Shown piece by piece: positions 5,543 to 46,123 of a stretch of DNA of 64,000 nt. Position numbers and translations under genes: made by a program. Source of the stretch: Candidatus Coprousia avicola (GTDB lineage: Bacteria; Actinomycetota; Coriobacteriia; Coriobacteriales; Coriobacteriaceae). Numbering within the stretch: position 1 is the first letter of the stretch; each line of letters starts with the position of its first letter. The notes under the pieces are model-generated. The model was not told where the DNA came from, did not search any database, and saw only the letters and a program-made list of their open reading frames with translations. The stretch is from assembly GCA_018715125.1 (NCBI GenBank), contig DVMF01000084.1, positions 1-64,000 on the forward strand. Reading direction: 5' to 3'.

Positions 5543-5992
5543 ATGCCAGAAGCATGCAATAAACGCGGGCGACCCGGAATGACTCTCGCGTTTCGATACG
5601 GGAGTGATGGCATGGCAGAGGGCAAGCGAACAACCTACAACCAGGCGACGCGCCTGCGCGCCGTCGAGGCGCTCGAAGAGGGGATTAGCCAGCGGGCGCT
5701 CGCAGCACAGCTGGGCATACCGGCGGCGACGGCGCGCCAGTGGGCGCGCGCCTTTGCGGCCGGCGGGCGCGATGCCGTGCTCAACGGCGGCTCGACGCAC
5801 CGGTCCTACGACCTCGATACCAAGATCGCCTGTGCGCGCGACCGCGTGGAAAAGGGCAGGTCCGTGCGCGAGGTGATGATCGCCTACGGCGTGACGAGCG
5901 AGTCCTCCGTCAAGATGTGGTGCCGCAAGTACCGCGCCGACGGCGTAAAGGGGCTCGTCAGCAAGCCGCGCGGCCGCAAGCCGCAGGCGTGA
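5543..5992 (+). CDS. two-HTH transposase-OrfA-like DNA-binding protein, orphan
   Basis: A 149-residue protein with two helix-turn-helix units of the IS3 OrfA/InsE type. One is at about residues 48-70 (ISQRALAAQLGIPAATARQW) and one at about 105-130 (SVREVMIAYGVTSESSVKMW), and the tail is basic (KPRGRKP). The ATG at 5543 has an AAGGGGG site; an internal ATG at 5612 is possible, while the longer frame from 5468 would overlap the divergent corA promoter region. No OrfB/DDE transposase gene follows and no IS ends are visible. It is therefore either a relic of an insertion sequence or a domesticated regulator. Its codon usage matches the neighbours. Confidence 0.7.
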   Translation: MPEACNKRGRPGMTLAFRYGSDGMAEGKRTTYNQATRLRAVEALEEGISQRALAAQLGIPAATARQWARAFAAGGRDAVLNGGSTHRSYDLDTKIACARDRVEKGRSVREVMIAYGVTSESSVKMWCRKYRADGVKGLVSKPRGRKPQA

Positions 5993-6025
5993 GCAAAAAG
6001 CGGCGAGAGGCATCCGGGGCGCTTG

Positions 6026-6112
6026 GTAAATGACTCTATGACGATAGCAATTTACGCATAATCTCTGTTGCCCGCGCCATGGCAAACGCCCCCTCTGAGC
6101 GCGTGCTATGAT
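6026..6112 (+). promoter_or_regulatory. AT-rich dyad and extended -10 promoter before fprA
   Basis: GTAAAT (6026-6031) pairs with ATTTAC (6050-6055), with CTAT/ATAG pairing inside, which makes an AT-rich dyad in a GC-rich setting. Downstream, TGC-TATGAT at 6104-6112 is a good extended -10 element (TGn plus TATGAT); the -35 is poor. It would start transcription about 65 bases before the fprA ATG. The dyad may be an operator, or the stem of a weak terminator for the HTH gene. Confidence 0.5.
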
Positions 6113-13328: not shown

Positions 13329-13486
13329 GGCATCCCTTATCTCGTGTGGTTCGCCTCGATTGTCTCACGTTCTCGTGCGACGGGTGCGCTGCCCTGCAAA
13401 TCAGCGCAAAGCGCGCCCCGCCGCGCGCCGTTCAGGCCGCTCTCTCGGGGGCGTTTTCACTCGGAGCCCCTCTTTTGGCGGGTGAG

Positions 13487-13638
13487 GGGGGGTTATTCAT
13501 TCTAGTGCACGGTTTAGAGCACCCCCTCATAGTAGAGAAGCGCACCGTGTTGGGAAAAAGCGCTGGTCAGAAGGCCGCGCGATTCTGCGGCTACTCGAAG
13601 GACCCATCGTGAACTAGTCACTAGAATAAATAGCCCCC
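13487..13638. repeat. possible miniature element with ~20-bp inverted ends
   Basis: The left end 13487-13507 reads GGGGGGTTATTCATTCTAGTG. The right end 13619-13638, in reverse complement, reads GGGGGCTATTTATTCTAGTG; the two match except for two or three changes and one indel. The 111 bases between encode nothing evident. CTAGT-C-ACTAG next to the right end is itself palindromic. The size and inverted ends suggest a MITE or insertion-sequence remnant; no clear target duplication was found. Confidence 0.5.
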
Positions 13639-13677
13639 TGATTGAGGGCGCCGTCAGCCAGGCGGTGTCGTCGTTGC

Positions 13678-13775: not shown

Positions 13776-13977
13776 GGGGACAAACCCGCCAGATTGCATG
13801 CCCAGGGGAATAAGGGGAGAGAAGTGGCGGATTGTATGTATTTCAGGGGATAGAGCGGGCGGATTGTATCTTTCTGTACAAACCGCCGGTTCTTTGCATG
13901 CCGCAGAGCTGGGGTTATGCCAGCTAAAATGCGCGACATGCAATCCGCCTATACAATCTGCAGGTTTTCTCCCCGCG
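13776..13977 (+). repeat. palindrome-rich dispersed element, copy A
   Basis: About 200 bases that align along their length with the reverse complement of 33316-33563. Landmarks in order: GGGGACAAACCCGCCAGATT at 13776, GGCGGATTGTAT at 13826-13837, GGGCGGATTGTAT at 13857-13869, the inverse GTACAAACCGCC at 13876-13887, ATGCAATCCGCC at 13938-13949, ATACAATCTGC at 13951-13961, and TTTTCTCCCCGCG at the end. The middle pair forms a hairpin with a 6-base loop, and the outer motifs can pair across the element. It lies about 165 bases before the ABC exporter gene. It could be a structured RNA, a clustered protein-binding site or a MITE. Confidence 0.75.
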
Positions 13978-33315: not shown

Positions 33316-33606
33316 TCCCCAGGGGCGGGGAGAAACGCCGCAGATTGCATGTCGACACTCCCGCGGGGAGAAAAGCGGCAGATTGTATAGGCGGATTGTA
33401 TGTCGGGATTCCGCTGTGACGAAAGTCCAGCTCAGAGCAGTGCAAAGAACGGGCGGATTGTATAGAAAGATGCAATCCGCCCGTTTCTCACCCCGATTCT
33501 CATACAATCTGCCGCTTCTCTCCCTTTTCCCTGGGAACATACACTCCGCTGGTTTTGTCCCCCTTACGCGCAGGCGTACAATCCGCCGCTTCTCTCCCTT
33601 TTCCAC
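33316..33606 (-). repeat. palindrome-rich dispersed element, copy B
   Basis: The reverse complement aligns with element A through most of its length and carries one extra unit at its upstream end. Motif sites on the plus strand: GCAGATTGCAT 33340, GCAGATTGTAT 33378, GGCGGATTGTAT 33390, GGGCGGATTGTAT 33451, ATGCAATCCGCC 33470, ATACAATCTGCC 33502, CATACACTCCGC 33539 and GTACAATCCGCC 33576. The centre, 33448-33463 with 33470-33485, is a 16-bp hairpin with a 6-base loop and one G-T pair. A unit containing GGGAGAGAAGCGGC plus the motif occurs twice, 74 bases apart. It ends about 230 bases before echAB. Confidence 0.75.
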
Positions 33607-45664: not shown

Positions 45665-46123
45665 CTGCTTCGCTCACGCTTCTGGAAGGATGAGTCCCCG
45701 TCGCAGAGGATATGTTGGGCGCCTGGTGGCGTTCTCGGTGGGCACTGCGCTCCCGCGTACATTGCCGCGTACATTGCCGCGCGTTTTGCCCGGGCCCCGG
45801 GACATTTCTCGCGGCAAAGAACCCGGCAATGTACGCGCGAATGTACGGTGCGCAAAATGGCAGGTAGAGGGCTGTACATTATCCCTCGCAATGTGCATGG
45901 GGCCCCGTCACGGTCCCGGGGGTTCGCCATTTAGTACATTGCGCCCGATATTGCACCGAGGGGCCGGCAAAATGGCTTGCAATGTACGCAGTGGCGTATG
46001 CGGCTGTGAGCGGGGCGCCAAACGGAAGAAAACCACTCCCCGGGCACGGGTCGCCTCCACCTCGCGGCCGCCCTTGCTCCCGCCATGCGAGAGGCGCCCC
46101 TCACGGGGTGGTTCCGGATCTTA
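45665..46123. other. 459-base intergenic region with second palindromic element
   Basis: Mostly filled by element D (45755-45989). The right part holds the likely minus-strand terminator of gluQ: arms 46029-46040 and 46105-46116, with a GTGGTTTTCTTCCGTTTG tail reading leftward. Six-frame reading shows only frames without conserved content. Confidence 0.55.
45755..45989. repeat. palindromic element D (GTACATTGC family)
   Basis: Its ends are inverted repeats: 45767-45800 and the reverse complement of 45956-45989 share GCGTACATTGC, TTTTGCC and a G/C-rich run over about 34 bases. Inside are GTACATTGCCGC twice in tandem (45757-45780), GGCAATGTACGCG (45825), GAATGTAC (45839), CGCAAAATGGC (45851), GTACATTA (45874), GCAATGTGC (45888), GTACATTGCGC (45934), GCAAAATGGC (45967) and GCAATGTAC (45979). 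The design copies that of elements A and B, but the motif differs. Confidence 0.7.

Follow-up and report, generated by a model that had tools for sequence, protein, structure and literature searches.

The window analysed here, a 64,000-nucleotide stretch of the Candidatus Coprousia avicola genome, carries two related elements, copies A and B, each of which lies in a gap between divergent genes: copy A separates an RNA-methyltransferase-like gene from an ABC/FtsX permease gene, and copy B separates a solute-binding protein gene from the genes of an NADH-dehydrogenase/hydrogenase-like complex. The element is non-coding, about 200 bases long, and built on 25-nt boxes tagged GGG(G)A. The two copies can be aligned along 201 bases, 76% of them identical (E 5.6e-33 in a search of one genome), in agreement with the original prediction of an alignment of about 200 bases, and the sequence landmarks named in that prediction are present in both. 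The features are as follows, with the basis of each given in brackets.

13776-13977, plus strand: copy A, whole element (blastn family; ortholog in Collinsella sp. An268 93% identical)
13776-13800, plus strand: copy A box F1, GGGGACAAACCCGCCAGATTGCATG (sequence, pattern match)
13814-13838, plus strand: copy A box F2, GGGGAGAGAAGTGGCGGATTGTATG (sequence, pattern match)
13846-13898, plus strand: copy A central hairpin, made of F3 at 13846-13869, the loop CTTTCT and inverted R3 at 13876-13898 (covariation across copies)
13906-13912, plus strand: copy A GAGCTGG heptamer (ortholog changes 0/35; 3% between paralogs)
13937-13974, minus strand: copy A inverted half-box CATGCAATCCGCC at 13937-13949 and inverted full box R1 at 13950-13974 (sequence, pattern match)
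33327-33599, minus strand: copy B, whole element with extra outer boxes (blastn, pattern match)
33362-33562, minus strand: part of copy B aligned to copy A (one further box on each side)
33575-33599, minus strand: copy B extra direct box F0, 37 bases upstream of F1 (sequence, pattern match)
33538-33562, minus strand: copy B box F1 (sequence, pattern match)
33501-33525, minus strand: copy B box F2 (sequence, pattern match)
33441-33494, minus strand: copy B central hairpin (F3 33470-33494, loop, R3 33441-33463)
33427-33433, minus strand: copy B GAGCTGG heptamer (sequence)
33365-33402, plus strand: copy B inverted half-box and inverted full box R1 (sequence, pattern match)
33327-33351, plus strand: copy B extra inverted box R0 (sequence, pattern match)

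The general plan of the element was derived from an oriented alignment of 17 copies. In its first half, the direct boxes F1 and F2, set at a period of ~37 bases, are followed by F3, which runs into its own inverse R3 over a 6-base loop to make the central hairpin; the GAGCTGG heptamer stands about seven bases beyond R3, and the second half consists of an inverted half-box fused to the inverted full box R1. Several copies carry extra outer boxes at the same ~37 period, and the ends of the element are not sharp, being graded box arrays that vary in number. The boxes are of the GGGAGAGAAGCGGCGGATTGTATG type, with an F1/F2 consensus that reads in outline GGG(G)A-N-A-R-A-A-n-n-GGC-R-GATTG-Y-ATG, and the spacers between them have diverged nearly completely from copy to copy.

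Copies A and B belong to a larger family. A blastn search of the window's own genome (G000; 2.42 Mb, 93 contigs) with the 202 bases of copy A returned eight strong matches including copy B, so that the genome holds at least nine copies with A and B counted; the seven others have E values of 3e-37 to 3e-12, and the other matches are 71-77% identical to copy A, mostly over near-full length. Against sixty relatives, copy A matched one genome only, that of Collinsella sp. An268 (G006), with 12 hits, and in view of the seven further copies and these 12 hits the similarity of copies A and B is far beyond chance. The box pattern, with one mismatch allowed, gave 27 and 28 matches in G000 and Collinsella sp. 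An268, respectively, and zero in a draw of 396 further Coriobacteriia genomes (398 in total), with zero reversed-pattern matches in both G000 and Collinsella sp. An268 as controls; the central palindrome pattern was found in 2 of the 67 genomes of the taxonomic family, again these two. The family thus occupies about a dozen intergenic gaps in two closely related gut bacteria, and its range within the genomes examined is limited to these sister species. The proposal of a dispersed palindrome-rich element is borne out, with a family larger than had been stated; the nucleotide search for further copies in related Coriobacteriia that was suggested with it found them in one relative, and the view of the similarity as old, not a fresh duplication, also holds.

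The earlier impression that no named family fits agrees with the searches for known matches. Rfam gave nothing over the element, whether applied to the window, to copy A at E values up to 1 or to the 17 loci, and neither phage nor plasmid collections held a match to it; IMG/VR contained no palindrome match, and its one box match, inside a phage contig, is by its appearance likely to be due to chance. Among the matches listed, Bradyrhizobium loci (L060-L139) fit the palindrome pattern, and were set aside as a different, abundant repeat, GGGGAGAGGTCGGATTGCATC-NNNN-GATGCAATCCGGGTGAGGGG, whose centre fits the pattern and which also begins GGGGAGAG; we take this as convergence. A full-text literature search yielded no paper on intergenic palindromic repeats in Coriobacteriia.

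Neighbouring genes were called around the 17 copies and checked against Pfam for some, gene names without such a check being a reading of the translations. Besides the divergent gaps of copies A and B, copies occur in both orientations in tandem gaps (HAD/DtxR-like, dinG-like/dnaB, peptidase/pyc) and also in convergent ones (coaX/birA, pyc/dnaE), the other copies adjoining pyc, dnaE, coaX/birA, dnaB, the DtxR-like gene and prfA. The 17 copies show no orientation preference, no neighbour function in common and no constant position or orientation upstream of membrane-complex operons. This mixture of gap types, without a common neighbour function, excludes an operon leader or promoter element and leaves the predicted link to membrane-complex operons without support. 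Beside some copies there are further hairpins: just upstream of three of them (L043 at ~5857-6040, L047 and G000:C89:12808-12990) is a hairpin AAAAGTCACGCnTGCGGTC...GACCGCnGGCGTGACTTTT, 70-84% identical among the three, which looks like a duplicated bidirectional terminator adjoining the element, and a second one, CGCGTTTAGGCCC...GGGCCTAAACGCG, stands beside other copies.

Both strands fold better than shuffled sequences (z -4.7 and -6.3), although good folding is to be expected of inverted copies of one box, functional or not. The T/C and A/G swaps between copies A and B, which had been said to preserve pairing in the central hairpin, are not compensatory in the alignment: GCAT in copy B sets C opposite A, GTAC in copy A gives a U.G wobble, and the hairpin of copy A also has an A.A mismatch. 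Across the 17 copies, the search for covariation succeeded modestly in the central hairpin, where 7 of 22 pairs changed on both sides (14 cells against 5.4 in shuffles, with 0 of 500 shuffles reaching 14), and failed almost entirely in the long-range F2:R1 stem, where helix 2 has 1 covarying pair of 13 and helix 1 has none. The excess folding and the covarying hairpin would be explained by a structured non-coding RNA or by an element acting in cis on an mRNA, yet we consider this reading highly improbable: the copies have no preferred orientation and occur in convergent gaps, their flanks differ and so offer no common promoter or terminator, the long-range stem is nearly devoid of covariation, and Rfam has no match.

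Constraint at present sites was assessed on five orthologous element pairs from G000 and Collinsella sp. An268, two genomes that differ at 7.5% of four-fold degenerate sites (532/7058). Divergence between orthologs is 9.0% in the boxes (61/675) and 11.5% in the spacers (37/323; P 0.26 for the difference), so that the boxes do not fall below synonymous divergence, whereas between paralogs boxes differ by 19% and spacers by 45%; the paralog ratio, if it applied at fixed sites, would predict about 26 box changes against the 61 observed (P ~2e-9). Since the conservation seen among paralogs is not detectable at fixed sites, box conservation would seem to reflect constraint on the lineage while it propagated, or conversion between copies, more than function where the copies now stand. 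Columns conserved among the other copies show an ortholog divergence of 5.3%, the remainder of the element one of 15% (P 6e-7); the 5.3% is not significantly lower than the synonymous 7.5% (P 0.08), and weak residual constraint on these columns is possible. Overall, the selection on structure or binding sites that had been predicted is undetectable at present sites.

A rival reading is that of a multi-site protein-binding element, in which a host nucleoid, replication or regulatory protein would occupy the ~37-base-phased boxes and the palindrome. The invariant box core CRGATTGYAT with its regular spacing, the symmetric central site with its modest covariation, the lack of ortholog changes in GAGCTGG and the slower change at conserved columns than at others all speak for such a role; against it, boxes at fixed sites change on average at the synonymous rate, several sites have been lost in one of the two species, the element is absent from other genomes of the genus, and its neighbours have no function or arrangement in common, which together make it rather improbable. 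It is distinctly improbable that the element is a functional chromosomal hub, with a phased binding-site array and an extruding hairpin serving a putative host protein of this species pair in chromosome organisation or global control and with fast gain and loss between species.

The history of individual sites was followed in the same two species, in which the element or its remnants are common to the matched sites. The copy in the coaX-birA gap is reduced to a single box in G000, and at the copy B site Collinsella sp. An268 is left with a fused box pair. At the prfA site (L218, G000:C82:9868-9964, compared with L056), G000 keeps three direct boxes only, after which the sequence enters a neighbouring reading frame that has lost its 5' end to a deletion at the element, the frame being longer and open in Collinsella sp. 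An268. A 480-base stretch at the pyc-dnaE site is missing in G000 with no nameable remnant, and loss in G000 is here the likelier reading, though not a proven one. All comparable sites seem to be older than the separation of the two species. Because every compared site is either shared or deleted, with neither a clean empty site nor a target duplication, no insertion event is directly demonstrated. At the coaX-birA site, the intergenic sequence of other genus members is unrelated; in two of them (G003 and G002; L221 120-335 and L222) the gap is occupied by another palindromic insertion, with CCCCCGCAGAATAATAAA / TTTATTATTCTGCGGGGG at its bounds, and other members of the genus may therefore carry intergenic repeat families of their own.

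Other repeats lie in the window itself. Just upstream of copy A, positions 13480-13655 are a member of a second dispersed family, unrelated to the element, of ~160 bases and near-constant length, with about ten copies each in G000 and Collinsella sp. An268; seven further genomes from the genus contain no copy. It is sharply bounded (GGGGGTTATTMATTCTAGTG ... CACTAGAATKAATAACCCCC), with flanks that diverge immediately beyond its ends and 20-base terminal inverted repeats GGGGGTTATTMATTCTAGTG, and its internal AGTAG...CTACT blocks could also pair. This second palindromic family, confined to the same two species, appears to behave like the element and would count in favour of mobile repeats. At positions 45751-45847 there is a long, imperfect inverted repeat in which CGTACATTGCC units recur, possibly another repeat family. 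The element could itself be a MITE, now dead, that derives from a classical DDE insertion sequence and has no relation to Y1 transposases, as it is non-coding, about 200 bases long and has inverted ends, and as the MITE-like second family, with its sharp 20-base ends, resides in the same genomes; we find this origin doubtful, given the graded box arrays of variable number in place of sharp ends and the lack of target duplication at the compared sites.

We regard mobile repeats of a BIME/TIR-like kind as the probable explanation, and, with slightly less assurance, the family would be one of non-autonomous, non-coding mosaic intergenic repeats that spread in a common ancestor, stopped and are now decaying. 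Its composition and distribution, the shared sites, the deletions and the lack of average constraint detectable at fixed sites are directly supported. The search for an autonomous partner covered PF01797 and found Y1 transposases in both genomes, the TIRYT of Collinsella sp. An268 lying at L239:1549-2403. One of the transposases adjoins a phosphoglycerate-mutase-like gene, is extended at its C-terminus by a stretch that gives weak helix-turn-helix matches, resembles the model of REP-associated tyrosine transposases below its cut-off, and is preceded by direct boxes TTTGGGGACGGG..GCATGC at one 41-base step; its relatives are present in 54 of the 67 genomes of the taxonomic family, and some, such as that of G003, have inverted GGGGAC-tagged boxes downstream of the gene. 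The boxes that flank TIRYTs in these genomes are GGGGAC-tagged and arrayed, and those of the resident TIRYT (TTTGGGGACGGGGTCGAAGCATGC) have only GGGGA and a loose ...ATG end in common with the boxes of the element. No Y1 gene in either genome is flanked by the element's exact boxes (pattern search, up to 2 mismatches), and none of 30 TIRYT loci of the taxonomic family has GATTGTATG among the boxes listed. A helper of this type is accordingly something we infer, because TIRYT box sequences differ from those of the element, and we hold it only as a tentative possibility.

TIRYT TIRs are tagged GGGGWSAS and may occur as families scattered through the genome as dimers and clusters (PMC3733652), and most TIRYTs belong to subclass 2.1 (PMC6006769). 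The element resembles TIRYT/TIRtron TIR families (TnpA_REP subclass 2.1, RAYT group 1; PMC3733652, PMC6006769) in its G-run-A inverted repeats, in its direct arrays and inverted pairs, in its dispersal, likewise in dimers or clusters, and in sharing a genome with a Y1 transposase of that kind; it differs in that its boxes were found with no transposase gene, that the sequence beyond GGGGA is not that of the resident TIRYT, and that its tag GGG(G)ANA fits GGGGWSAS in part (among boxes tagged GGG(G)A-N-A-R, GGGGAGAG and GGGGACAG fit GGGGWSAS exactly; GGGGATAA and AGGGAGAG do not). The plan matches, yet none of the TIRYTs examined has the element's own box, and membership of a TIRYT's TIR family is therefore not claimed. 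GC skew revealed no orientation bias of the single-strand transposition kind, the test being a weak one. With REP/BIME/REPIN sequences and their RAYTs the element has in common an intergenic, palindromic and mosaic character and alternating orientations, but it lacks the GTAG/GTGG tag, its single boxes are not palindromes, and it numbers about ten composite copies against hundreds of units. Compared by plan, not by sequence, it is short, non-coding and dispersed like MITEs such as Correia and RUP, but without sharp terminal repeats or target duplication. The BOX elements of pneumococcus are modular and made of repeated sub-units, and in that respect the element resembles them.

The spreading unit would have been the ~200-base composite, with direct boxes in array, the hairpin of box against box, the GAGCTGG heptamer and then the inverted array. 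A transposase acting in trans, of which Y1 (HUH) tyrosine transposases of TIRYT type are the best candidates, may have recognised the boxes as its ends while the central hairpin formed on single-stranded DNA. Spread would have taken place in an ancestor shared by the window's species and Collinsella sp. An268 and halted before they split, with decay since then through point mutations and box-to-box deletions. The copies are thus most likely the decaying remnants of a small mobile family, of a kind common in bacteria and set apart by its composite plan and its narrow range, and they add a well-delimited composite intergenic repeat family to the Coriobacteriia. They also carry a caution, in that conservation of boxes between copies need not mean regulation, such conservation being undetectable at fixed sites. 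As the range comprises two species with shared sites, the life cycle of the family, from burst through arrest to deletion between boxes, becomes measurable, and, if a helper Y1 transposase for the element's boxes were found, what TIRYTs mobilise would become testable.
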